A stretch of 53,070 nt of DNA from Persephonella sp. (GTDB lineage: Bacteria; Aquificota; Aquificia; Aquificales; Hydrogenothermaceae): the NCBI GenBank assembly GCA_027030485.1, contig JALVEY010000173.1, positions 1-53,070 on the forward strand. Direction: 5' to 3'. Below, piece by piece: positions 4,035 to 45,142 of the stretch (positions are counted from its first letter, which is position 1; every line of letters begins with the position of its first letter). The notes below the pieces were generated by a model. It ran no database searches. It had not been told where the DNA came from and saw only the letters and a program-made list of their open reading frames with translations. A program made the translations under genes and the position numbers.

Positions 4035-4574
4035 TTACAGTACTCTTGAAAAATTAACTGTAAGCTTACAGTCGTTTACAGTAAATTCAAAGATTTCATT
4101 AACAGTTCCAAAAACTTTTTTATATCTGCCATTTTCAAGTTGGAAAATTTTTACATGTTTTCTATCTTCTGTCGGGTAAACTAAGCAGTAATACTCTACT
4201 CCTTCCCTTTCATAAAGTTCGTATTTAAGATGCTCATCCATTTTCACCGATGATGGAGATACCACTTCAAATATGATTTTGGGTGTTGTGGTAACTTTTT
4301 CTCCCGGATTTCCACAGATTACTACTACATCAGGTCTAACTACCGTATCTTCTGATACGTAGTAATCAATATCTGGAATAACTTCACAATTTTGAGTTTC
4401 GCAGTTTTTTATTCCTTTATCTAATTCAACTATTAAGTTCTTTATTACCCTTTGATGCTCAACAGAAGAAGACGCCAGAGCATAGGGAACTCCTTCAATC
4501 AGTTCCCAATCTCCTTGCCATTTATTTCTTTCCTCAACAGTATAATAAGGTAAATATCTATCTGCTAATCCCAT
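4035..4574 (-). CDS. Uma2 family (DUF820) PD-(D/E)XK nuclease-like protein
   Basis: The protein is 179 aa from ATG 4574, which has GGAAGG 5-6 nt upstream; the longer ORF (start 4607) would overlap sucC by 20 nt. The Uma2 pattern is present: an N-terminal WELIEGVPYALA segment, RPDVVVI with Asp82, IFEVVSPSS with Glu103, then a Lys117 helix (HLKYELYEREGVEYYCLV). This matches the restriction-endonuclease-like fold of the family. Biological substrates of Uma2 proteins are poorly known; they are abundant in cyanobacteria and other bacteria, often as stand-alone genes. Its placement between sucC and sucD in the same orientation means it is probably co-transcribed with them. No link to succinyl-CoA chemistry is implied by its fold. 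Confidence 0.88.
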   Translation of the reverse strand: MGLADRYLPYYTVEERNKWQGDWELIEGVPYALASSSVEHQRVIKNLIVELDKGIKNCETQNCEVIPDIDYYVSEDTVVRPDVVVICGNPGEKVTTTPKIIFEVVSPSSVKMDEHLKYELYEREGVEYYCLVYPTEDRKHVKIFQLENGRYKKVFGTVNEIFEFTVNDCKLTVNFSRVL

Positions 4575-4587
4575 ATAACCTTCCAGT

Positions 4588-5757
4588 CTATCCTGTTTGT
4601 TTTGCAAGTTCTACAGCTTTTTGGGCTCCTTCCCACATGGTATCAGCAGGAATAAGATCAAGCCCAGATTCTGCAAGCATCTTCTTACCAAGCTCCACAT
4701 TTGTTCCTTCCATTCTCACAACTATTGGAACATGGGGATTTACCTCTTTTGATGCCTGAATGATACCCTCAGCAAGTCTATCACACCTTAAGATACCGCC
4801 GAATATATTGATAAAAATAGCTTTAACGTTAGGATCAGAAAGTATAATCTTGAATGCATTTGCTATCTGCTCAGCATTTGCAGAACCTCCAACGTCAAGG
4901 AAGTTCGCAGGTTCTCCTCCGGCAAGTTTTATTGTGTCCATTGTTGCCATTGCAAGACCTGCACCGTTTACCATGCAGGCTATATTTCCATCAAGTTTTA
5001 TGTAGTTCAGGTTGTACTGTTTGGCTTTTACTTCAAGCTCAGATTCCTGTGTTGGATCTTCCATCTCCATTATGTCAGGATGTCTGAAAAGGGCGTTATC
5101 GTCAAAATCAACCTTTGCATCAAGAACAACAATATTTCCTTCTTTCGTCAGAACAAGAGGGTTGATCTCAACCATAGAGGCATCTTCTTTCATATAAACA
5201 TTGTAAAGCTTCAGGAAGACCCCTGCCACTTTGTTTATCAGGTTTTTTGGAAAGCCAAGCTTAAGGGCTATATTTCTTGCCTGGAAGGCTCGAAGTCCTA
5301 TAAATGGATCTATTTCTTCTGTTATAATAGCCTCTGGATTTGTGGCGGCAACCTCTTCAATCTCCATTCCACCTTCTGAAGATGCCATAATGATCAGTTT
5401 TGACTTACTTCTGTCTAATGTGATAGCAACATAGTACTCCTTGTCTATGTTTGTCCCTTCCTCTATGTATATCCTGCTGACCGGCAGACCTTCAGGACCT
5501 GTCTGAAATGTTATAAGAGTTTTCCCAAGTAGTTCAGCAGCATACTTCTGAACCTCATCAAGGTTGTTTGCAAGTTTTACACCTCCTGCTTTTCCCCTAC
5601 CTCCTGCATGGATCTGTGCCTTAACCACAACAGGAAATTTGCCAAGCTGCTGGGCAGCCTCAACCGCCTCCTCAACTGTAAATGCAGGATAACCTTTTGG
5701 TACAGGAAGTCCATATTTTGCGAATATTTCCTTTGCCTGATGCTCATGTACTTTCAT
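4588..5757 (-). CDS. sucC: Succinate-CoA ligase (ADP-forming), beta subunit
   Basis: The protein is 389 aa, close to the family norm. The N-terminus is an ATP-grasp domain ([35 protein letters not shown]), with EINPLVLT for metal/nucleotide binding and a C-terminal ligase domain with [12 protein letters not shown]. It supplies nucleotide and succinate binding and pairs with SucD. It starts 10 nt after fumB, so it is translated from the same message. The next gene downstream is the Uma2-like insertion rather than sucD. Confidence 0.96.
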
Positions 5758-12586: not shown

Positions 12587-12875
12587 CTTTTTGGGGCTTC
12601 TCTCCCTTTTCATCAAGACTATCCCACTTTTCTATTATACTTACATTTTTCTCGTCAAATGAGAGAAAGTAGTATTTATTATTGGCTTTTACCACTGTAA
12701 GACCTTTATTTTTACCCAGATATTTAATATCTACTATCTGTATTACCCCTTTTTGTCCCGGCAGGATACCTTTTCCGTATCTGTTGATCAGGTAGTATAT
12801 TGAATATATCAAAACCACAACAATAACAAATGATGAGAAAACCCTCAAAAGATCTGAATAATCAAGCAAGATCAA
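12561..12875 (-). CDS. fliO: Flagellar biosynthetic protein FliO
   Basis: The protein is 104 aa with a single N-terminal membrane segment (LRVFSSFVIVVVLIYSIYYL) and a small cytoplasmic domain (VDIKYLGKNKGLTVVKANNK then YYFLSF), the FliO pattern. FliO helps assemble the FliP ring and is not in the mature gate. It sits between fliN and fliP, the usual place, and overlaps both. The C-terminal tail is very charged (KGEKPQKDEKNPDNN). Confidence 0.88.
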   Translation of the reverse strand: MILLDYSDLLRVFSSFVIVVVLIYSIYYLINRYGKGILPGQKGVIQIVDIKYLGKNKGLTVVKANNKYYFLSFDEKNVSIIEKWDSLDEKGEKPQKDEKNPDNN

Positions 12876-13137
12876 CTACCCTGACAGCGTATTTTTCGTT
12901 AACTACTACAAGTTCTCCAATTGCAAAAAGCTGTCCTCTTAGATAGATCTCTATATAATCTTCAAGATTTTTATCTAACTTTATTATATCCCCTTCTTTC
13001 AGTCTCAAAATATCTATAAAATTTTTCTTTGTTCGCCCAACCTCACCGGTTAGTTTAAGATTTATATCATGGAGAAACTGGAGATCAAGCTCTTCTTGTA
13101 TCGTACCATTAAGCTGTTCTTCTTTTTTTTCATCCAT
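12862..13137 (-). CDS. fliN: Flagellar motor switch protein FliN, short form (SpoA domain)
   Basis: The protein is 91 aa, consisting of a short acidic leader and one SpoA domain with LQFLHDINLKLTGEVGRTKK, LKEGDIIKLDKNLEDYIEIY and ELVVVNEKYAVRVVDL. FliN packs with FliM at the base of the C ring and receives FliH. A second, longer FliN lies next to fliM (33968-34522), so the organism has two. This copy lacks the W-containing N-terminal motif seen in the long form. It sits between fliL and fliO, where a fliN is often found. Confidence 0.9.
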   Translation of the reverse strand: MDEKKEEQLNGTIQEELDLQFLHDINLKLTGEVGRTKKNFIDILRLKEGDIIKLDKNLEDYIEIYLRGQLFAIGELVVVNEKYAVRVVDLA

Positions 13138-15916: not shown

Positions 15917-17222
15917 AGCTTAATCCCTCTTTTCTTATTTTTTCTATAAGATTTTCAAGCTGTTCAACACTTTCTTTAAAGTTTACTTTTAGATTCATGT
16001 CTTGCTTTATAAACTCCTCCATATCTCTGTGCATTTTTATAGCAAGGTCTATCTTTGGCGTTGTTCCTTTTTTATACAACCCTAAGTTAATCATGTCTTC
16101 AGACTCTCTGTAGGTTGTTTCCAGATCCATAAATATCGCCTGATATTTTAATATATCGTCATCAACAAGCTGTGGCATTAATCTGCTAACACTTTTTAAA
16201 ACATCTATAGCAGGAAATATTCTCTTATTTGCCAGTTCTCTTGACAGAACTATATGACCGTCGAGAAATCCCATAGCTGCATCTGCTACAGGATCCATAC
16301 TTATATCATCTCCCTCAACAAGAACAGTATATATCCCTGTGATGCTGCCTCTGTTAATAAAGTTTCCTGCTTGTTCTATAAACTTAGGAAGAAGAGCAAA
16401 TACAGATGGTGTATAACCTTTTGTTGTTGGAGGTTCTCCTACAGCAAGTCCTATCTCCCTCTGTGCCATAGCAAGCCTTGTAAGGGAGTCAACTAAAAAC
16501 AGGACATCTTTACCCATATTTGAGAAGTAGTTTGCTATAGCTACCGCTGTATAAACGGCTCTTATCTTCGCAAGGGGAGGTTGATCTGATGTGGCAACCA
16601 CGACTACAGATTTTCTCAAACCTTCATCACCAAGATTATCCTCAATAAATTCTCTTACCTCTCTTCCTCTTTCTCCAACAAGCACAATAACATTAACGTC
16701 TGCTTCTGTATATCTTGAAATCATACCAAGCAGTGTACTTTTCCCAACTCCTGCCCCTGCGAAGATTCCTATTCTCTGTCCTTTTCCTATTGTTAAAAGG
16801 GCGTTTATTGATCTTATTCCTACATCAAGAGGTTGTGTTATTCTTGCCCTTTTTAATGGGTTTACTATCTCATTTTTCAGGTAGTACTGGTAAGAGGCAA
16901 CAAAATCATCCCTATTTAAAGGTTTTCCAAATGGATCGACAACACAACCTAAAAGGTCTTCTCCTACTCCTATACTGACAGGTTCTTGGCTCGACTCTAT
17001 CCAGCTTCCAACAGAGATCCCTTTTGTGTCGTCATAAGCCATAAGCAAGGTTTTTCCCTCTTTAAATCCCACTACTTCAGCCTCAATCTTATTTTCCAAA
17101 ATACATGAATCACCGATAGATACCTTTGGAAGATATGCTTCAATGATGGGTCCTGTTACTCCTGTTATCTTTCCTTTTATCTTATAACGGGGAATTCTTT
17201 TTAATCTCTCTTTTAATTTCAT
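15894..17222 (-). CDS. fliI: Flagellum-specific ATPase FliI
   Basis: The protein is 442 aa. Walker A is at about 155-163 (AGAGVGKST), followed by VIVLVGERGREVREFIEDNL and the Walker B strand DVLFLVDSLTRLAMAQREI, then GEPPTTKGYTPSVFALLPK. All are typical of type III/F1-beta-like export ATPases. FliI hexamers at the gate unfold and deliver substrates with FliH and FliJ. The start overlaps fliH by 41 nt. A fliJ gene does not follow it; the best candidate is at 8358. Confidence 0.96.
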   Translation of the reverse strand: MKLKERLKRIPRYKIKGKITGVTGPIIEAYLPKVSIGDSCILENKIEAEVVGFKEGKTLLMAYDDTKGISVGSWIESSQEPVSIGVGEDLLGCVVDPFGKPLNRDDFVASYQYYLKNEIVNPLKRARITQPLDVGIRSINALLTIGKGQRIGIFAGAGVGKSTLLGMISRYTEADVNVIVLVGERGREVREFIEDNLGDEGLRKSVVVVATSDQPPLAKIRAVYTAVAIANYFSNMGKDVLFLVDSLTRLAMAQREIGLAVGEPPTTKGYTPSVFALLPKFIEQAGNFINRGSITGIYTVLVEGDDISMDPVADAAMGFLDGHIVLSRELANKRIFPAIDVLKSVSRLMPQLVDDDILKYQAIFMDLETTYRESEDMINLGLYKKGTTPKIDLAIKMHRDMEEFIKQDMNLKVNFKESVEQLENLIEKIRKEGLSYGINWDQ

Positions 17223-17856
17223 CTTTCAAAATATTCACTTTTTCTTTAAATCTACTCTCAAACTGGACATTTTCAATCTTTACTGTGAAATCCCCCCCTT
17301 CAAAATCCTTTCTTTCTACTATTTTTATATTTTCAACCTGAAAATCTATGAAGGATTTTAATTGCGGCGAAACCTCAACTGTTATTTCAGGTGCTATTTT
17401 TAGATCTTCTATGATTTTTTTTATTTCTTCTGATACATATTCAGCATTTTCAGGATTTATATAAAGATATTCCATTATTTCTTCTAAAACTGAGAGTATA
17501 AGTTCATCAATAAACTCTATATGTTTCTTATATCTGTCTTTTACTTCTTTTAAGAATGTTAACACCTGTTTTTTTACTTTTTCCTGTTCTATTCCATATT
17601 CCCTCTCTTTTTCTTCTAATGCTTTCTTTAACCTATCCTCAAACTCTGCTGTAAGGGTTTTTTCTACCTCTTCACTTGCTTTTTTATAACCTTCCTCAAA
17701 ACCTTTTTCGTATGATTGTTGTATCTTTCTTTCAAAATCTTTTTCTAATTTTTTTATCTGATCCTGGTAAAATTTTTCCAATTCCTCTTTTGAAAGTTCT
17801 TTTGAGTTAGGTTTGTTTAAAGATCTTCCAAAATCTTCAAGATCAAGGGATGGCAT
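17182..17856 (-). CDS. fliH: Flagellar assembly protein FliH
   Basis: The protein is 224 aa: a long charged coiled coil (about 20-110) with glycine-spaced turns (YEKGFEEGYKKASEEVEKTL) and a C-terminal FliH/HrpE domain ending in KIENVQFESRF. FliH binds FliI as a dimer and docks it to FliN in the C ring. It lies between fliF and fliI as expected. Sequence identity in this family is low, so the call uses pattern plus position. Confidence 0.88.
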   Translation of the reverse strand: MPSLDLEDFGRSLNKPNSKELSKEELEKFYQDQIKKLEKDFERKIQQSYEKGFEEGYKKASEEVEKTLTAEFEDRLKKALEEKEREYGIEQEKVKKQVLTFLKEVKDRYKKHIEFIDELILSVLEEIMEYLYINPENAEYVSEEIKKIIEDLKIAPEITVEVSPQLKSFIDFQVENIKIVERKDFEGGDFTVKIENVQFESRFKEKVNILKDEIKREIKKNSPL

Positions 17857-24382: not shown

Positions 24383-24691
24383 ATGAACAGAATTATGATG
24401 TTATCTATACTTGCTGTTATCTTTTTTAGTATTGGAGGTCTATCTTATTATCTGTATGAAAGTCTTTACAAAAAACAATACAAGTATTATAAAGGGGAAA
24501 TAAGGAAAACGCCGAAATACTATAAAGCAAAACCTGAAAAAGCTCCTAATTACTACAAGGGTTCATTAAAAAAAGTTCCTAATTATTACAAAAAGGATAT
24601 AAGGGATCTTCCTAACTACTATAGACCTGAAGGTTCTGTAAAAAAATCAGACAGAGCTTCAAAATTGAAAAGCCTTAAAGAGAACTGGTAA
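24383..24691 (+). CDS. Small membrane-anchored YYK-repeat protein of unknown function
   Basis: The protein is 102 aa, with an AAGGGTGAG ribosome site before ATG 24383. Residues 4-25 form one hydrophobic helix. Residues 34-77 are four back-to-back 11-residue repeats with the pattern [KN]YYK-x3-[REK][KD]-x-P: KYYKGEIRKTP, KYYKAKPEKAP, NYYKGSLKKVP, NYYKKDIRDLP, then a fifth start NYYRPEG. The repeat part is strongly basic and Tyr-rich. The gene is the only plus-strand one inside the flagellar island, wedged between fliK (divergent) and fliA (convergent, 3-nt gap). I do not recognise the family. A cell-envelope or appendage-associated role is conceivable from the anchor and position only. Confidence 0.8.
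   Translation: MNRIMMLSILAVIFFSIGGLSYYLYESLYKKQYKYYKGEIRKTPKYYKAKPEKAPNYYKGSLKKVPNYYKKDIRDLPNYYRPEGSVKKSDRASKLKSLKENW
24482..24613 (+). repeat. Four tandem 33-nt coding repeats in the YYK protein gene
   Basis: These encode the four 11-residue YYK repeats. At the DNA level the copies are diverged (for example TACTATAAA, TACTACAAG, TATTACAAA for the YYK core), so the repeat is kept at the protein level and is not a recent slippage product. Confidence 0.85.
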
Positions 24692-24694
24692 TTT

Positions 24695-25318
24695 TTAATA
24701 AACAAAAAGGGATTTAAGTTTTTTTATAGCCTCTGCCTTTATCTGTGAAACTCTTGAAACAGATACATTTATCTCACTGGCAACAGATTTAAGATCTCTT
24801 TCTTCAAAATAAAGCATCTGAAGTACTTTTTTTTCTTTTTCTGAAAGGAGATTTACCGCCTGCAAAAGTTTTTCTTTTTGATCTTCCCTGATAACTTCTT
24901 CTTCAGGTGTTTCCTTTTCTGAAACGAGAGTATCAACGATTTTCAGGCTATCATCTGATGAAAGGGCTTTTTCTATACTTACCATAACGGCTGTGTTTGA
25001 TAGGGGAACTGTTTTTCCTTCCTCTAATGGGGTCTCTTTTTTTATCTTATCCCTAACGGTTCTTGGGACTATATCAAGGCTTCTCAAATAATCAAGTATT
25101 TCTCCTCTTATTTTGATGTAAGCATAAGTTGAAAATTTGGCTTTGTCCTTGTCGTACTTTTGTATAGCTTTCATAAGACCTATGACTCCAACATTCACAA
25201 GATCATCAAACTCTATATCCCCCTTTGGCAATCTGTAGTATATTTTGCTTGCAACCTTTTTCACAAGAGAGATATTGTCAAGGATAAGTTTTTCTCTTTC
25301 TTTTTTTTCCATTTTCAT
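24695..25318 (-). CDS. fliA: RNA polymerase sigma factor for flagellar genes, FliA (sigma28)
   Basis: The protein is 207 aa from ATG 25318, whose ATGA overlaps the flhG stop; the ORF-track start at 25351 adds 11 residues inside flhG. Region 2 is clear (LPKGDIEFDDLVNVGVIGLM, AIQKYDKDKAKFSTYAYIKI, LRSLDIVPRTVRDKIKK). Region 4 has the helix-turn-helix LKSVASEINVSVSRVSQIKA. FliA normally directs late flagellar and chemotaxis genes and is held by FlgM, which is not in the window. It closes the cheZ-to-fliA run, and the flhF-flhG-fliA order is widespread. Confidence 0.93.
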   Translation of the reverse strand: MKMEKKEREKLILDNISLVKKVASKIYYRLPKGDIEFDDLVNVGVIGLMKAIQKYDKDKAKFSTYAYIKIRGEILDYLRSLDIVPRTVRDKIKKETPLEEGKTVPLSNTAVMVSIEKALSSDDSLKIVDTLVSEKETPEEEVIREDQKEKLLQAVNLLSEKEKKVLQMLYFEERDLKSVASEINVSVSRVSQIKAEAIKKLKSLFVY

Positions 25319-26166
25319 TCTTTTTTCAAAAAGTTTACCACTTTTTCCCAAAAGCTTTCTTTTACAGGGGGAGGTGGTTCCCCTAATTCCTCTGAAGCTA
25401 TTTTTTTTAGCTGTAAAACAAACTTATCTGAAGGATAAACTTCAGATATTATCTGTTTTTTCTTGACAGTTTTTTGTATATTCTTTGTATGACCTAAAAC
25501 GCCTCCTAACTGGAGATTTATACCCAGAAACTTGTCTACTGAGGATTTTAGTCTGTTAAAGGTTTCAAGACCCTCTTCTTCACTTTTTACCATATTTACA
25601 ACTACCTTAAAATCAGAATAATCATAAAGCTTTTTCATAGATTTTATTAGAGCATACGCGTCCATAATTGCTGTAGGTTCAGGTGTTGTAATAACATAAG
25701 TTTTAGAGGATGCTCTTATAAAGGATATTACCTTGTTATCAATTCCTGCTGCGGTATCAATAATGATATAATCGTATTTTTCTGAAACATCATTCAGATT
25801 TTGAACAAATCTGAAAACGGCAGTATCGTCAACCTCATTTATCGCATCAATACCAGAAAATCCAGGAAGAATATCGATCCCTCTGGTTGAGAAAATGATG
25901 TCTTCAATCTTTTCACCGCTGAGTATATTTTTTAGCGTTTTCTTTGTGTTGACATTTACCAGTATATGGACATTCGCCATCCCTATATCAGCATCTATTA
26001 AAAGGACTTTTTTTCCAAAATCATTAGCCATCAAGTAAGAAAAATTAACGGCAAAATTTGTTTTCCCTACTCCTCCTTTACCGCTTGCAACTGCAAGGAA
26101 TTTTGTGTTTCTGTCTATCTTTTTTTCATTGATAAGTTTTAGAAGTCCTTTTGCCTGCTCCTCCAT
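25315..26166 (-). CDS. flhG: MinD-like ATPase FlhG (flagellar number control)
   Basis: The protein is 283 aa. The deviant Walker A ASGKGGVGKTNFAVN (about 28-42) and the DADIGMANVHIL switch segment identify the MinD/ParA family, and the short N-terminal helix with QAKGLLKLI is the FlhG activator region that stimulates FlhF GTPase. A C-terminal amphipathic stretch (FWEKVVNFLKK) could serve as a membrane anchor. FlhG limits flagellar number by acting on FlhF, its upstream neighbour (11-nt gap). Confidence 0.93.
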   Translation of the reverse strand: MEEQAKGLLKLINEKKIDRNTKFLAVASGKGGVGKTNFAVNFSYLMANDFGKKVLLIDADIGMANVHILVNVNTKKTLKNILSGEKIEDIIFSTRGIDILPGFSGIDAINEVDDTAVFRFVQNLNDVSEKYDYIIIDTAAGIDNKVISFIRASSKTYVITTPEPTAIMDAYALIKSMKKLYDYSDFKVVVNMVKSEEEGLETFNRLKSSVDKFLGINLQLGGVLGHTKNIQKTVKKKQIISEVYPSDKFVLQLKKIASEELGEPPPPVKESFWEKVVNFLKKE

Positions 26167-26177
26167 AACAACCTCCG

Positions 26178-27320
26178 TTAAGAACTGATTAAATAAGAGG
26201 CAACAGTTTCCGGATTAAGAATTTTCAGGTCTTCAGGAACTCTTTGCCCTGTGCTCAAATAAGAAACAGGCAGTTTAGTCTCTACAGGAAGATTAACAAG
26301 AAGCCCCGGCTTTAATGTTTCATCTATTTTTGTAAAAAATAAAGAATGTATCGGGAAAAATGTTTGGTACTTATAGATAACCTCCATCGCATCATCATTT
26401 TTAAAATTGCAACTGATAGTAAGAACATGTTTTATCTCTTCTTCCAGACTGCTTAGGATCTCTTTTATTTCTCCTAATCTCCAATAATCATAATGGCTTC
26501 TTCCCACAGTATCTATCAAAATAAAATCAAACTCTCTGAGCTGTTCAACAGTGTTCTTTAGTTTTTTTGATTCTGATATTGAATAAAATGGTATATTCAG
26601 AATGTTTGCATAGGTTCTTGCCTGATGGGATGCTCCAACTTTAAATGTGTCCGTGCTTATAACAGCCACCTTTTTCTTTTTATCTATTACAAGCTGTGAT
26701 GCTATTTTAAAAAGATTTGTGGTTTTCCCAACACCGGTTGGACCAATAAAAGCGATTATCTGAAGACCTTCTCTATCATTCTCAAAACTACCTGTAAATT
26801 TCATATACCTTTTTATCCCCTTAATAACAGCATCTTTTGTAGTAATTGTGTTTAGATCCCATTTGTTTGTGTCTATATCAAGCCCACATCCTTCAGTAAC
26901 AATTTTTTTTGCAACATCAGGAAGAACATCTTTTTCAAGCAACTGTTCTACAAGATGAAGTGCATCTCCGGTAAATTCATTAAGGATGTTTGATCCTTTT
27001 GAACCGATTTGAACATGCGGGGGGAGGTTTTCTGGATTTGCCAGTCCCTGTGCGTATTTTGGCAAAGAATTTCTTATTTTTTTGTCTATAAGATCCTCCA
27101 CTTTTTCAAGGAGTTCTTCAAATTTCAGAACAGGTTCTGAAAGCTCCTGATCATCAACAGGTTCAACAAAAAGTCTGTACTTTTTTTTGCCTTTGAAAAA
27201 CAAAAATTTCTTTTCCTCAATAGTTTCATAATGGAGAATCTTTATGTCTTCTCCAAGTTCGTCTTTTGCCTTATCAATAAGCTGCTCAAGATCATAACCT
27301 TCGTATATTTTAATCTCCAT
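26178..27320 (-). CDS. flhF: SRP-type GTPase FlhF (flagellar placement)
   Basis: The protein is 380 aa. A basic N-terminal domain (about 1-90) precedes the NG domain: P-loop GPTGVGKTT at 193-201, TDTFKVGASHQARTYANILN, DTVGRSHYDYWRL and TKIDETLKPGLLVNL. FlhF dimers recruit the first basal-body parts to the pole. The gene overlaps the flhA end by 11 nt and precedes flhG, the conserved order. Confidence 0.94.
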   Translation of the reverse strand: MEIKIYEGYDLEQLIDKAKDELGEDIKILHYETIEEKKFLFFKGKKKYRLFVEPVDDQELSEPVLKFEELLEKVEDLIDKKIRNSLPKYAQGLANPENLPPHVQIGSKGSNILNEFTGDALHLVEQLLEKDVLPDVAKKIVTEGCGLDIDTNKWDLNTITTKDAVIKGIKRYMKFTGSFENDREGLQIIAFIGPTGVGKTTNLFKIASQLVIDKKKKVAVISTDTFKVGASHQARTYANILNIPFYSISESKKLKNTVEQLREFDFILIDTVGRSHYDYWRLGEIKEILSSLEEEIKHVLTISCNFKNDDAMEVIYKYQTFFPIHSLFFTKIDETLKPGLLVNLPVETKLPVSYLSTGQRVPEDLKILNPETVASYLISS

Positions 27321-33967: not shown

Positions 33968-34522
33968 TTATGATTCTTCTGCAGTTAGCAGTTTCATCCT
34001 TTCCTGAACAGTGATAATACTTGTTATTTTAATACCAAAGTGATTCTCAACAGTATACAGTTCTCCTTTAGCTATAAGCTTTCCATTTACCTTTATATCA
34101 ACAGGTTGATTTATGTATCTGTCCAGTTCAACAATACTGTTAGGGTTAAGTTTGAGAACTTCTTCAAGTGGCATTGTTGTGCTACCTATTTCTACAGATA
34201 TTTCAAGGGGGATGTCCATTAGGAGATCAAGTTTTTCCTTCTCTATCAGATCTGTGGGAGGGTGTTCTATAACCTGTTGAGGTTCTTCTTTTTTTTCTTC
34301 CTGTGCCATCTGAGCCCATTCTTCAGCAAGTTTTTCCTGATCTATTTCATCACTTTCTTCTTCTTGTTGAGTTTCCTGTGCCATTTTTTCCCATTCTTCA
34401 GCTAATTTCTCCTGATCTACTTCTTCAGACTGTTCCTCTGCCATTTTTGCCCATTCTTCTGCAAGCTTTTCCTGATCAACCTCTTCGCCTGTTTGCTCTT
34501 CTTTTTTTTCCTCTTCTGACAT
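33968..34522 (-). CDS. fliN: Flagellar motor switch protein FliN, long form with triplicated N-terminal motif
   Basis: The protein is 184 aa from the second ATG (34522); ATG 34525 overlaps the fliM stop. The C-terminal about 85 residues are a SpoA domain (LLMDIPLEISVEIGSTTMPL, ELYTVENHFGIKITSIITVQ, then ERMKLL). The N-terminal 78 residues contain three near-identical units built on VDQEKLAEEWAKMAEE. A single W-containing motif of this kind (LWAEALSEQ) stands near the start of E. coli FliN, so this looks like that motif in three copies. The gene lies with fliM and fliG, so this is probably the principal C-ring FliN, while the short copy sits near fliP. Confidence 0.92.
   Translation of the reverse strand: MSEEEKKEEQTGEEVDQEKLAEEWAKMAEEQSEEVDQEKLAEEWEKMAQETQQEEESDEIDQEKLAEEWAQMAQEEKKEEPQQVIEHPPTDLIEKEKLDLLMDIPLEISVEIGSTTMPLEEVLKLNPNSIVELDRYINQPVDIKVNGKLIAKGELYTVENHFGIKITSIITVQERMKLLTAEES
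34292..34486 (-). repeat. Three coding repeats in the long fliN
   Basis: Residues 14-33, 34-53 and 59-78 of the ORF share [VI]DQEKLAEEW followed by [AE][KQ]MA[EQ]. The encoded core DQEKLAEEW is invariant, but its codons differ between copies (CTT GCA, TTA GCT, CTT GCT for LA), so selection has kept the peptide while the DNA drifted. Confidence 0.88.
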
Positions 34523-34524
34523 CA

Positions 34525-35481
34525 TTACTCCTCTTCAAAAACCGGTTTTGTTATCATTGCTGCATATTTCTCATTTATTTTTCCAAGTTTTGCAAAAAAT
34601 TTGTGTTTATCTTCAACAAATAGCCTGAACTCCTGATCAGGTGAAACAAAAAGATTGATCTGTGTTCCTTCTTCCCAGGAAAGTATATCTTTGATTTTCA
34701 TTTTCACTTTTGTAAGTTCAAATTCTATCTTGACATTGATCTTTTTCACTTTTTCCTCAATGTTTTTCTTCCATACAGGATCTTCAGCGAAAGCAACCTG
34801 GGAGTAAACTATATCCTTTATAGGAAAAAACATACTTTGGGGAAAACAGAAAAAGAATGGAGCCTCATAACCTTCTATATCTATCTTACACTCTACTATG
34901 ATAACTTTTTCGTTTGGAGAAACTATTCTTGCAAGACTTGGATTTAATTCTATAGATCTTACTTCAACCATAACTGGATAAAAGGCATCCCAAACCTGCT
35001 CAAACGTTTTCAAAGCAGAGTTAATAAAATCATCTATAACTTTCATCTCAAGCTTGGTGAATTCTCTTCCTTCTACTTTAAAAGGTTTTGCAGGACCTCC
35101 AAAAAGAACGCTTATAACTGTAAAAACAAGTCTTGAGTCAACAACCAAGAGGGCATTTTCCTTTAAAGGTCTCATCGAAAAGATAGTATAGCTTGATGGA
35201 AGGGGGATTTTGAATATAAAGTTTTGAAATCTTGATATGTAAATATTTTCTTTTGTTACCATGTTTATCTGAGGAAGAATTTTCCTTGATTCGTCCCGGA
35301 AAACCTTTATCCATCTTTCAAATATTAGTTCAAAACCGGGAAGTCCTCCCTTCTTTATGTGTTCAACTTCAGAAAAATCAAAAGGTGTAATATCAGATTT
35401 TTTTTCTTCCTCTTTTTCTTCTTCTTTTCCACTTCCTAACAAAGCGTCTATTTCTTCTTGGGAAAGAAATTCCTCTGACAT
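34525..35481 (-). CDS. fliM: Flagellar motor switch protein FliM
   Basis: The protein is 318 aa. The N-terminal CheY-P binding motif is present (LSQEEIDALLGSG, residues 7-18), a CheC-like middle domain includes LVFTVISVLFGGPAKPF, and a C-terminal SpoA domain ends near FAKLGKINEKYAAMITKPV. FliM couples CheY-P to switching of rotation. A very acidic KEEEKEEEKK linker joins the first two parts. It overlaps fliN and follows fliG. Confidence 0.96.
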   Translation of the reverse strand: MSEEFLSQEEIDALLGSGKEEEKEEEKKSDITPFDFSEVEHIKKGGLPGFELIFERWIKVFRDESRKILPQINMVTKENIYISRFQNFIFKIPLPSSYTIFSMRPLKENALLVVDSRLVFTVISVLFGGPAKPFKVEGREFTKLEMKVIDDFINSALKTFEQVWDAFYPVMVEVRSIELNPSLARIVSPNEKVIIVECKIDIEGYEAPFFFCFPQSMFFPIKDIVYSQVAFAEDPVWKKNIEEKVKKINVKIEFELTKVKMKIKDILSWEEGTQINLFVSPDQEFRLFVEDKHKFFAKLGKINEKYAAMITKPVFEEE

Positions 35482-35491
35482 AACAAAACCT

Positions 35492-36517
35492 CTAAATCAT
35501 TTCTTCTCCAGCACCATACTCAATAACACCTTTTTCTATAAGACCTTTAATTGTAGCGATGATCTTTTTTCTTGCATTTTCAACATCGGACTTTTTAACA
35601 GGTCCGAGAATTTCCATATCCTCAAGGAACATCTGTGCAGCTCTTTTTGACATGTTAGACAGGAACTTATCCATAATCTCTGGAGGAGCTCCTTTAAGGG
35701 CGATAAGTAGATCATTCTTATCAACGACTTTAAGTATCTCAATAATAGCCCTGTTGTCCAGCTTGACAATATCTTCAAATTTGAACATTTTTTCTTCAAT
35801 CGTATCAGCAAGGGATGGGTTTTCTTTTCTGATCTCTTCAAGGATCTCCTGCCCTAATTCTTTTGGTAATACATTAACAATTTCGGCTGCAATGTCAACT
35901 CCGCTTAATGTTTCTTCTTTCCCTGCTCCTATGGTAAGGAGTTCTTCTTCAAGGGTGTTGGCAACCATTTTCAGCATATCGCTTGATATCTTCTCTATGG
36001 AGGCTATTCTTTTTATTACTTCTTCCTGAACGTTTGTTACACCAAGCCTTTTTGGGAGAAACTGTATTATTTCTGCTGCCTTTACAGGTTTTAATTGGGA
36101 AAGTATTAGGGCGATAACCTGCGGATGTTCATTCTGGATAATATTTGCAACAAATTTTGGATCCATCTTTTCAAGCTCTCTGAATATAGCTTTCCCTTCC
36201 TCAACAGTCAACGTATCTGCAAGAAGTTTTTCTAACTTATCAGGGGGAAGTGCTTGCTCTAATATTTTTTTTAGATTTTCAGGGGCAATTTTAATAGGTG
36301 CTATTTCCTTTAAAGCTTCAAAGGCTTCCTCAAGTATCTGCTTTGCAGTTTCTTTTGATGGAGGCTCTACAGCAAGAATTTGTTTTATAAGTCTTTCTAT
36401 TTCATGTTCTTTTAAGTGTTTGAATATTGTAACTGTTGCTTCTTCAGGGAGAAGCGAAAGGAGTATAGCTGCTTTTTCAGGACCTTTAAGACTTTTTTCT
36501 TTTTTTTCTTCTGGCAC
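35492..36517 (-). CDS. fliG: Flagellar motor switch protein FliG
   Basis: The protein is 341 aa. The middle domain EHPQ motif (NIIQNEHPQVIALILSQLKP) and the C-terminal torque domain with MFKFEDIVKLDNRAIIEILK and LSNMSKRAAQMFLEDMEILG are present. FliG transmits stator force to the MS ring. The gene is preceded by a PilZ protein gene (3-nt gap) and followed by fliM. Confidence 0.97.
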   Translation of the reverse strand: MPEEKKEKSLKGPEKAAILLSLLPEEATVTIFKHLKEHEIERLIKQILAVEPPSKETAKQILEEAFEALKEIAPIKIAPENLKKILEQALPPDKLEKLLADTLTVEEGKAIFRELEKMDPKFVANIIQNEHPQVIALILSQLKPVKAAEIIQFLPKRLGVTNVQEEVIKRIASIEKISSDMLKMVANTLEEELLTIGAGKEETLSGVDIAAEIVNVLPKELGQEILEEIRKENPSLADTIEEKMFKFEDIVKLDNRAIIEILKVVDKNDLLIALKGAPPEIMDKFLSNMSKRAAQMFLEDMEILGPVKKSDVENARKKIIATIKGLIEKGVIEYGAGEEMI

Positions 36518-42154: not shown

Positions 42155-42649
42155 TTATAAGTTCTCGGTTCTGAATATTTTCTTTATGTTTAGCAAAGTT
42201 AATAGCTCCTTTTTTCCAGAGCCGTTTTCTATCATTATCACACCATCTATGAAATCAGGATCAATCCCTATAGAGTTCATTGGGGGTGGCTGTATCTCTT
42301 CAGGGTTTATGTTTATTGCTCCCTCAACTTTATCAACAGTTATTCCTATATGTCCTAAATCTGTTTCAACAACAACGATCATTGGATGTTCAAGATTATC
42401 TTCCCCATTAAGGTTAAACTTTTTCTTAAGGCTTACGACCGGAATTATGTTTCCTCTAAGGTTCATTACACCTAAGATATAATCTTTTGTTTTAGGAACA
42501 GGTGTAATATCCATATCCTTCGTTATTTTGATCACATCTTTTATATTCACACCTATAAGTTCATCATTAAGGTAAAATGTTATTAGCCTTTCTTCTGTTG
42601 ATACCTCTTTTTTTATTTCCCTAAGTCCTAAGACCTCTATTTCTGACAT
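42155..42649 (-). CDS. cheW: Chemotaxis coupling protein CheW
   Basis: The protein is 164 aa, a single CheW domain with EERLITFYLNDELIGVNIKD, VMNLRGNIIPVVSLKKKFNL and IGITVDKVEGAININPEEIQ. It bridges MCPs and CheA at the array. Its start overlaps the last base of cheA. The organism therefore has two CheW-type adaptors, this one and CheV. Confidence 0.96.
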   Translation of the reverse strand: MSEIEVLGLREIKKEVSTEERLITFYLNDELIGVNIKDVIKITKDMDITPVPKTKDYILGVMNLRGNIIPVVSLKKKFNLNGEDNLEHPMIVVVETDLGHIGITVDKVEGAININPEEIQPPPMNSIGIDPDFIDGVIMIENGSGKKELLTLLNIKKIFRTENL

Positions 42650-44616
42650 TACAGCACCCCTACAAGTTGTGATTTTTTGTCATTTATTAATGAATTTGTA
42701 TCAACAATTAGAACAACTCTTCCGTCTCCTGTTATTGTTGCTCCCGCAATTCCCTGAACATTTTCAAGAAGCTTTCCAAGTGGTTTAATAACAATTTCCT
42801 CTTCTCCAAAAAGTTCCTCAACACTGATTGCGATATTTTTTTCACCTACTCTCACTATCACGATAAACTGTTTTTCATTCTGATCTGGCATATCAAAAAG
42901 TTCATTCAGACTGAACATAAGATAAACTTCTTCCCTGAGCATAAAGGACTTAAACTGACCGATATTTTTTACTTTGTCAGGTTCATATCTGACTATTTCC
43001 ACGACAGAGTATAGGGGGATGGCAAAAATTCTGTTGTTAGCTCCAACCATTAATGTTCTTATGATTGCAACTGTCAGAGGGAGTTTCATAATGAATTTTG
43101 TACCTTCTCCAAGTTCGCTCTCAACTTCTATTGTTCCCCTTAAGGAGTGTATTGTTGATGCAACCACATCCATACCAACTCCCCTTCCGGACACATCACT
43201 TACCTGCTCTGCTGTTGAAAATCCCGGCATAAATAAAAGCTCAAATGCCTCTTTATCACTGATATTTTCTGCCTGCTCCGGCGTTATTAGACCTTTTTCA
43301 ATAGCCTTTTTCTTTACCTTTTCAACATCTATCCCTTTTCCATCATCTTCTATAGCTATGATTATTCTGTCTCCTTCTTGATATGCAGAAAGTTTTACTG
43401 TACCAATTTCTGGTTTCCCAGACTTAACTCTTTCTTCAGGTGGTTCTATCCCATGATCGATAGCATTTCTTACAAGATGAATTAGAGGATCTTCAAGTTT
43501 GTCAAGTATTGATCTGTCTATTTCTGTATCTTCTCCCTCAAGCACAAGATTTACTTTTTTGTTCAATTTTTTGGCAAGATCCCTTACTATGCGGGGAAAT
43601 TTGCTGAAAACTTTTTTAACAGGTTGCATCCTCAATTTCATAACTGCATCTTGAAGATCGCTGACCGTTCTGCTCATCCCTGTTATTGAGTCTAAAAGTT
43701 CTTCTATAGTTTCTGTACTATTGCAGGATGTTTCAAGTCCAGAGGCAAGCTTTACAATTCTGTTCCTGTCTAAAACAAGTTCACCAACAAGATTCATTAA
43801 TACCTCAACCCTTTCAACATCAACCCTTATAACCTCTTCTTTTTTCTCCGTTTTTTTCTTTTTTGTGATCTCACTCTTTTCAGCTGTTTTGGGTCTCTCT
43901 TCTTTTTGCACAGGTTTGCTTTCTTCTATTTCAGGTTTGGATTTCTGTTCTTCCCCTTTCTGTTTTATTAGATCTTTAACATCTTTTCCTTCAGATATGA
44001 TTTTTTCCAATTTTTCTATAACTTCTATAGATGGTCTCTCATCCGGAGGAAGAAGAATAAGTTCCTCAAGAATTTCTCCGAGATCCTTTCCAGGATACTG
44101 CAAAATAAGATTTTTTATATCCTCATCTACACTTTCTACAAACTGTATGTCCGTACCTATTTCGCCTTGAGATTCATGGTTATTGTTAACTATCTCTGCT
44201 TCCAGAACCTCACCACCTGAAAGGACAGACTCAAGTTTTATCAATAGATCTTTTATATCCTCTTCATCAGGAATTTCCTCGCTTTCTTTTATCATTTCAA
44301 TGGATTCTTTTAGTTTATCAACACCTTCAAAAATAATATCCATCATTTCTGAAGTAAGTTTTAATTCATCATTCCTGAGTTTATTGAAAATATCCTCTAT
44401 CTTATGGGCAATCTCAACAACAGATGTAAGTCCTAAAAAACCTGCTCCCCCTTTTAGGGTATGCATACCCCTAAATATTTTGTTAAGAAGTTCTTTATCA
44501 TCAGGATTTTCCTCAAGTTCTATTAGATCCTGATCAAGACCTGATAGTATTTCATCAGCCTCAATCAAAAATTCTTCAAGTATTTCTTTCATATCCTCTG
44601 GAAAATCTAACTTCAT
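42649..44616 (-). CDS. cheA: Chemotaxis histidine kinase CheA
   Basis: The protein is 655 aa from ATG 44616, preceded by GGGGTGG; the ORF-track start at 44640 adds eight residues. Domains in order: HPt with His52 (MHTLKGGAGFLG), a linker region where a P2 domain is not obvious, the dimerisation helices (VERVEVLMNLVGELVLDRNR), the HATPase core (LVRNAIDHGIEPPEERVKSG, DDGKGID, GFSTAEQVSDVSGRGVGMDV) and a C-terminal CheW-like P5. It phosphorylates CheY in response to MCP state. It follows cheZ. Confidence 0.96.
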   Translation of the reverse strand: MKLDFPEDMKEILEEFLIEADEILSGLDQDLIELEENPDDKELLNKIFRGMHTLKGGAGFLGLTSVVEIAHKIEDIFNKLRNDELKLTSEMMDIIFEGVDKLKESIEMIKESEEIPDEEDIKDLLIKLESVLSGGEVLEAEIVNNNHESQGEIGTDIQFVESVDEDIKNLILQYPGKDLGEILEELILLPPDERPSIEVIEKLEKIISEGKDVKDLIKQKGEEQKSKPEIEESKPVQKEERPKTAEKSEITKKKKTEKKEEVIRVDVERVEVLMNLVGELVLDRNRIVKLASGLETSCNSTETIEELLDSITGMSRTVSDLQDAVMKLRMQPVKKVFSKFPRIVRDLAKKLNKKVNLVLEGEDTEIDRSILDKLEDPLIHLVRNAIDHGIEPPEERVKSGKPEIGTVKLSAYQEGDRIIIAIEDDGKGIDVEKVKKKAIEKGLITPEQAENISDKEAFELLFMPGFSTAEQVSDVSGRGVGMDVVASTIHSLRGTIEVESELGEGTKFIMKLPLTVAIIRTLMVGANNRIFAIPLYSVVEIVRYEPDKVKNIGQFKSFMLREEVYLMFSLNELFDMPDQNEKQFIVIVRVGEKNIAISVEELFGEEEIVIKPLGKLLENVQGIAGATITGDGRVVLIVDTNSLINDKKSQLVGVL

Positions 44617-44629
44617 TTCATCCACCCCT

Positions 44630-45142
44630 TTACATTCCAAACTGTTTTAATATGTCATCAACATCTTTTTGGGATACTTCCTTTTTCCACTCAAGCTCTT
44701 CCAATTTTTCTTTTAATTCTTCTCTTTTTTCATCTGATTTTTCTTCACTGATCCCAAATAAAAGAAGAATTTTAAGTATTTCTTTTTCAAGATCGGTTAT
44801 AAACCCTGAAATTTTTAGAAGCCTCTGGGACAAAATATCCTGAAATTCAAGAAGGGTTAGAGATTCTGTAAGCAATCTCATTATTTTCTCAAGATCATCT
44901 TTAAATTTTCTTTGATCATCTTGAGTAAGCTGTTCAAGGACTCTTTTTAATATTTTCGTCGTTTCCATTATGTTATCGATAAGCTTTTTTGTAGCTTCCT
45001 CGCTCTCTTTTATGGCAAGCTCAATATGCTGATTTACACTTTTTAAACCTTCCCTTTTAGTTCCTAAAGTTTCCACGTCCTTTTTGTACTCTTCAATAAT
45101 TCCAAGAAGCTTTTTAACTTCCTGAAGTAAACCCTCTGTCAT
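44630..45142 (-). CDS. cheZ: CheZ-like CheY-P phosphatase
   Basis: The protein is 170 aa, all helical. The catalytic CheZ pattern is present in a long helix as LLEFQDILSQRLLKI (Asp102 and Gln106, matching the D-x3-Q of E. coli CheZ FQDLTGQ). The C-terminus SQKDVDDILKQFGM resembles the CheY-binding tail helix of CheZ (DALLSSLGF). It is shorter than enterobacterial CheZ (214 aa) and otherwise divergent. It is the first gene of the chemotaxis run, with a strong GGAGG site, directly before cheA. CheZ removes phosphate from CheY. Confidence 0.8.
   Translation of the reverse strand: MTEGLLQEVKKLLGIIEEYKKDVETLGTKREGLKSVNQHIELAIKESEEATKKLIDNIMETTKILKRVLEQLTQDDQRKFKDDLEKIMRLLTESLTLLEFQDILSQRLLKISGFITDLEKEILKILLLFGISEEKSDEKREELKEKLEELEWKKEVSQKDVDDILKQFGM

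Follow-up and report, generated by a model that had tools for sequence, protein, structure and literature searches.

In the C rings known so far, the C-terminal SpoA domain of FliM pairs with FliN. CheY binding has been demonstrated for the N-terminal peptide of FliM (EIDAL motif), a short helix at the terminus of a C-ring protein, carried on a flexible arm; CheY-P is also bound by a second known class of peptide, the amphipathic helix at the C-terminus of CheZ. Earlier work noted sporadic EIDAL-like motifs, "full or degenerate", in FliN and FliY (PMC6946799). The FliN of E. coli and Salmonella carries a tail (PF16973) ahead of its SpoA domain with one copy of a W-x-E-A-L-x-E-Q motif. The tail is disordered in Salmonella, where neither export nor FliH binding requires it but full motility does; its removal leaves flagellation intact and reduces motility, and FliN_C alone binds FliH-FliI and supports export (review PMC11673145). 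Salmonella FliH docks on the SpoA "thumb" of FliN through a clamp of two Trp of its own (PMC4443714). CheY is reported to bind FliN in E. coli (Sarkar 2010, as cited in PMC7355467), and the residues that impair CheY binding when substituted have been mapped on the structure of the FliN SpoA homodimer (PMC7355467). A search of the open-access literature found no description of Trp arrays in FliN and no partner for the FliN tail.

The window, i.e., the whole stretch of 53,070 nucleotides analysed here, encodes a long FliN in which the SpoA domain is preceded by three copies of a Trp-containing unit (Table 1). A preliminary description of the sequence had proposed this threefold arrangement and had likened the unit to the N-terminal Trp motif of E. 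coli FliN. Both readings hold: the open reading frame, the unit positions, and the profile scores agree on three copies ahead of SpoA, and E. coli FliN (GAMDDLWAEALSEQ) has a single DDLWAEALSEQ near its N-terminus. The E. coli and Salmonella tails differ from that of the window in having one copy and no SQEE cap.

Table 1. Positions in the window of the FliN units and of flagellar and chemotaxis features discussed in the text.
Feature	Position	Strand	Remarks
Short second FliN	12862..13137	minus	91 aa, SpoA only, no Trp unit; between fliL and fliO
fliH	17182-17856	minus	
flhG	25315-26166		
flhF	26178-27320		
Long fliN	33968..34525	minus	185 aa ORF; PF01052 6e-25, TIGR02480 over cut-off
SpoA (FliMN_C) domain of long FliN	34013..34225	minus	Residues 101-171; profile match
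Unit 3, IDQEKLAEEWAQMAQEE	34295..34345	minus	Trp residue 70; modelled helix 63-75
Unit 2, VDQEKLAEEWEKMAQET	34370..34420	minus	Trp residue 45; modelled helix 38-54
Unit 1, VDQEKLAEEWAKMAEEQ	34430..34480	minus	Trp residue 25; modelled helix 19-32
fliM	34525..35481	minus	TIGR01397 fliM over cut-off
FliM N-terminal CheY-binding motif LSQEEIDALL	35437..35466	minus	Profile comparison with FliN unit
fliG	35492-36517		Upstream of fliM
cheA	42649..44640	minus	PF02895 dimerisation domain at 43633-43836
CheZ-like protein	44630-45142	minus	PF04344 CheZ 6e-7, 29.9 bits, just below cut-off 30.7
C-terminal peptide SQKDVDDILKQFGM of CheZ-like protein	44633..44674	minus	Resembles CheY-binding tail of CheZ

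The identity of the long protein as FliN is supported by the scores of its SpoA domain (PF01052, 87.4 bits against a cut-off of 23.8; TIGR02480, 93.2 bits against 84.05) and by its position next to fliM in the flagellar cluster, where the two genes overlap by one base. It is not a FliY (CheC-FliN fusion): NF005995 aligns over its last ~150 positions only, with 109.5 bits against a cut-off of 218, and the region ahead of SpoA comprises 100 aa of helices and linkers with no CheC-like phosphatase domain in an AlphaFold2 model. The tail profile PF16973, which scores 74.6 bits with E. coli FliN, gave no match to the long FliN (E<=1) or to three other Aquificota FliN (E<=0.5).

The unit is a short amphipathic Trp helix with the consensus [SDN]-Q-E-x-[LIV]-A-x-x-W-x-x-[AM]-[LA]. 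The exact 17-mer of unit 1 occurs once, and units 2 and 3 share its DQEKLAEEW stretch and deviate from it at 3-4 other positions. Tandem Repeats Finder reports a 60-bp array across units 1 and 2 (score 163). With a profile built without the genus of the window, all three units score above threshold (best 22.9 bits); none of the tail's stretches without Trp scores positive. When the genus is included, the units reach 36.8-39.6 bits versus 8.9 for the next best non-FliN stretch in the 56 proteins of the window (16,510 positions), among which FliN is the sole carrier. AlphaFold2, run with 37 family members, places one helix on each unit with low-confidence linkers between them (mean pLDDT 75).

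The preliminary description had taken codon divergence around a constant peptide core as a sign of selection, and this is borne out by silent changes that greatly outnumber replacement changes between copies. Unit pairs in the FliN of the window have pS of 0.50-0.73 and pN of 0.09-0.16, based on just 17 codons per pair. Over all within-gene unit pairs in multi-copy Aquificota fliN, pN/pS is ~0.26, with pS ~0.8 (near saturation) and pN ~0.2. The presence of Trp in 165 of 165 units follows by construction, as units were gathered on Trp; a search with the Trp column ignored found no Trp-less copies in the tails of chemotactic Aquificota, where Trp-less stretches scored at most 3.6 bits versus roughly 15-35 bits for most real units. 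The copies are thus kept by purifying selection, and that the array is real and selected is almost beyond doubt.

Among 136 Aquificota genomes, 113 encode SpoA proteins, and FliN tails were scored from 99 loci. Copy number is not fixed at three. Within the genus of the window it is two (G081), three, or four, each copy with its Trp, so that the variation with loss of Trp in close relatives that would have spoken against the array is not seen. The remainder of the family has two or three units per FliN; two or three are also usual in family f5, and one, rarely two, in family f2. Families f1, f2, and f5 are taken as Hydrogenothermaceae, Aquificaceae, and Desulfurobacteriaceae. Beyond close relatives, Aquificota FliN has 0-4 units overall.

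Arrays are also found outside the phylum. A degenerate pattern of two adjacent units matched 16 stretches in 84,980 species genomes, a lower bound because the two-unit pattern is strict. Ten are from Aquificota and four are FliN from elsewhere, namely two Desulfomicrobiaceae MAGs (three units), a Desulfovibrionales MAG (five), and a Bacterioplanes MAG (two); the remaining two (L097, L106) were rejected as FliN, being long unrelated proteins that resemble FimV. In a sample of 101 genomes around the five-unit Desulfovibrionales MAG, all 30 of the 30 best-scoring FliN loci have two units, and other loci have three (G142), four (G233, G237), one (G191), or none. Desulfovibrionales thus usually have two units, with a range of 0-5 (five in L107). 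Their FliN carries an array of a nearly identical unit (IDQEKLAEEWAKALEEEG), differing from the FliN of the window in the usual copy number of two rather than three. In a Pseudomonadota sample, 12 of 29 FliN have 1-3 units and 17 have none. An innovation confined to Aquificota is rejected by the pattern scan and these two samples. The array is a widespread and variable elaboration of the known FliN tail, and what is new is its variation in copy number across phyla and its decay together with chemotaxis. As a side observation, several FliN of gammaproteobacterial type (L111, L211, L213, L214, L238) have two or three units of the form DDWAAAMSEQ / EEDPWAEALAEQ; these arrays fall in easily cultured groups, convenient for experiments.

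The relation to chemotaxis was assessed using the CheA dimerisation domain (PF02895), sought in all 136 Aquificota, with units scored by a profile built without the genus under test. The unit is intact in nearly all Aquificota with CheA and weak or gone in most flagellated genomes without it: the median of the best unit is 33.4 bits with CheA (n=78) versus -2.9 without (n=21; Mann-Whitney p 5e-11, uncorrected for kinship). Permutation of labels within the five genera that hold both CheA states gave a mean difference of 10.7 bits (p = 0.025); all five differ in the same direction, and g30, g16, and g18 contribute most of the effect. Flagellin is present in 23 of 23 genomes checked, and MCPs are missing in most CheA-less genomes. 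The clearest case at the residue level is G135 (99% complete), which encodes flagellin and has neither CheA nor MCP. Its FliN has lost unit 1, and in unit 2 the W is replaced by R (TGG to CGG) and the EAL core is deleted; the FliM motif of this genome (LSQEEIDALLGGG) is intact. The sister genomes G132-G134 have CheA and two units each. Similarly, the Aquifex-type genomes of g11 encode flagellin and lack CheA, MCP, and unit. One of these unit-less genomes, G001, has a FliG 100% identical to PDB 3HJL (A. aeolicus FliG) and is almost certainly Aquifex aeolicus itself. At 85 C this organism swims mostly straight, with a speed of 93 um/s, and homologues of che receptors are reportedly missing (PMC4525482). 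Assembly, export, and rotation are therefore compatible with a unit-less FliN.

The association has exceptions. The unit is kept without CheA in G030, G046, G047, G052, G058, and G101, and in weaker form in G040, G041, G043, G053, G054, and G057; the CheA-less genomes that keep it, sometimes weakened, belong to g14, g16, g18, g19, and g9. Gaps in MAGs may hide some cheA genes. In g11 and f3, FliM is strongly diverged too, and relaxed constraint on the whole switch could therefore explain unit loss there. Outside the phylum, a CheA-domain match is present in 13 of 13 unit-less Pseudomonadota checked, so that chemotaxis does not generally require the unit; of the Desulfovibrionales, G152, G172, and G182 have neither CheA nor units, and G136, G137, and G191 have units and only weak CheA-like matches. 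Rather than being a universal component of chemotaxis, the unit is employed by certain lineages, in which it tends to disappear together with chemotaxis. As it is intact with CheA and decays in many flagellated genomes without it, chemotactic switching, and not the assembly, export, or rotation of flagella, appears to account for most of the selection on it, and the unit is probably chemotaxis-linked. A role in steering, and not in flagellar construction, is suggested. The preliminary description was correct about the motif and placed its function on the less likely side.

The explanation proposed here is that the FliN N-terminus forms a flexible tail with an array of short amphipathic Trp helices, each a switch-side docking site for a switching regulator, most likely CheY-P, which FliM and CheZ capture by means of short helices of a similar kind. 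With several copies, CheY-P would be locally concentrated at the base of the C ring, and copy number would tune the sensitivity of the switch. Taken as a whole, with selection largely tied to chemotaxis, this explanation has in our view a little under an even chance of being right. CheY-P is considered the likeliest partner because the unit resembles the N-terminal CheY-binding peptide of FliM; both have an S-Q-E-E-[IL] cap followed, four positions further along, by a large hydrophobic residue. Binding, demonstrated for FliM, is inferred for the FliN unit. The FliM peptide differs in being single-copy, in having LL in place of the x-W of FliN, and in lacking the A-L-x-Q-Q extension. With the N-terminal half of the unit profile only, LSQEEIDALL ranks 6 among the 16,510 positions of the window, in register with the W, and the C-terminal peptide of the CheZ-like protein ranks 24. 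When the full profile is applied to the same positions, neither peptide stands out in register. The CheZ peptide differs from the unit in its weak match to the profile, its C-terminal location, and its single copy. The location of the E. coli CheY-binding residues on the SpoA homodimer counts against docking of CheY-P on tail units. On these sequence comparisons, CheY-P can be named as partner tentatively, at somewhat less than even chance. It is conceivable, though more doubtful, that the tail offers CheY-P, or another chemotaxis regulator, a multivalent and evolvable docking array, whose valency (from 0 to 5 copies in each FliN and up to 15 in a FliM-FliN3 protomer) serves as a lineage-specific gain control of the switch that is lost with chemotaxis. 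These features give the FliN tail a candidate function in switching that can be tested: its motif has multiplied repeatedly in unrelated lineages, retains the Trp in all copies, and tends to decay in flagellated relatives that lack chemotaxis. Should the amount of CheY-P captured by the ring depend on copy number, evolution would have a simple means of adjusting the gain of a highly cooperative molecular switch.

In the main rival explanation, the units would dock in grooves or clefts on adjacent FliM/FliN SpoA dimers and determine how stiff or cooperative switching is; units would then be lost without chemotaxis because cooperative switching is no longer needed. This accommodates the CheA-linked decay as well as retention in some CheA-less genomes. 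Structural precedents exist: FliM_N occupies the FliN2-FliN3 groove of the Salmonella C ring, where FliN alpha1 is swapped between protomers (PMC11528121), FliM residues 34-45 and the swapped alpha1 helices offering an analogy for such docking, and one FliN has its N-terminus wrapped around a FliM helix (PMC11302681). However, the matched C-ring FliN chains have 79-100 modelled residues of 137, with the Trp segment near residue 19 apparently outside the model. In addition, the Trp-to-Trp spacing in multi-copy Aquificota tails ranges from 19 to 46 residues, which is unusual for parts with fixed seats, and the AlphaFold2 model (pTM 0.44) has no confident packing of units on SpoA. We regard this explanation as unlikely.

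Similarly improbable is docking of another flagellar regulator, such as a CheZ-like phosphatase, FlhG/FlhF (polar placement and number), or a c-di-GMP effector. FlhG, FlhF, and a CheZ-like protein are all encoded in the window, interactions of FlhG with the C ring are known in other bacteria, and unit retention without CheA would be explained; decay with CheA loss is, however, not predicted by this proposal itself, CheZ excepted.

The preliminary description had suggested that a threefold tail could increase avidity for FliH or another export or switch partner. The switch partner agrees best with the present data, and the FliH part is not supported. FliH docks to the C ring through FliN, and no Trp was found in FliH at 25 loci of the window's family (L262-L286), such that a move of Trp to FliN is imaginable. 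Against increased avidity for the export proteins FliH/FliI stand the docking of Salmonella FliH on SpoA by its own Trp and the sufficiency of FliN_C for export, as well as the flagellin still encoded in unit-less genomes and the swimming of A. aeolicus, very likely G001. With a dispensable tail, own-Trp docking, and a Trp-free FliH, avidity for FliH is therefore the weaker reading, and we consider it very unlikely. Neutral growth and shrinkage by slippage of a Glu/Gln-rich low-complexity array with functionless extra copies would agree with two to four copies within a genus and with acidic, low-complexity linkers, but is scarcely credible given the silent divergence of copies with conserved peptide, the lack of Trp-less copies in chemotactic genomes, and the arrays in Desulfovibrionales and Gammaproteobacteria.

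Several further observations concern the neighbouring components. FliH of the window's family is without the Salmonella two-Trp clamp and has an L-[NE]-[IL]-x-D-F-like motif near its N-terminus instead; judged from its sequence, it may dock on FliN differently. An exchange of Trp between FliH and FliN was considered and rejected, as E. coli has Trp in both. The short FliN is in the classical fliL-fliN-fliO position, and the long FliN is elsewhere in a cluster with fliM and fliG; a similar short FliN is encoded by loci of families f1 and f5. Dosage compensation, with three units on one FliN equivalent to one on each of three, was rejected as an explanation of the array because G136 and G137 have three units and no second FliN, and because genus g20 has an extra short SpoA protein yet a single unit on FliN. 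Most genomes of the window's genus have four SpoA matches. The fourth SpoA ORF of the genome to which the window belongs (L004; G000:C111:1917-2117) encodes 197 aa with an unrelated N-terminal part and a weak score of 29.8 bits. In L073, residues 26-46 of the FliN tail give a near-threshold DUF802 match (21.4 versus 22.6 bits, E 3.5e-4) that may reflect chance or a related helical repeat.

A. aeolicus has been stated to have no fliM homologue (PMC4525482). In g11, proteins of 308-309 aa (L132-L135, L172) match FliM over cut-off with low scores and a degenerate N-terminus (LSKEEINFLMETL), and FliM thus looks diverged rather than absent; PF02154 gave no match in G001. Elsewhere in the window, a 102-aa ORF (24383-24691, plus strand) has an internal P-[NK]-Y-Y-K repeat (PKYYKAKPEKAPNYYKGSLKKVPNYYK) after one predicted membrane-like segment, and an ORF for a Uma2/DUF820-type nuclease-like protein (4035-4607, minus strand) overlaps the end of a sucC-like gene, separating it from a sucD-like gene.
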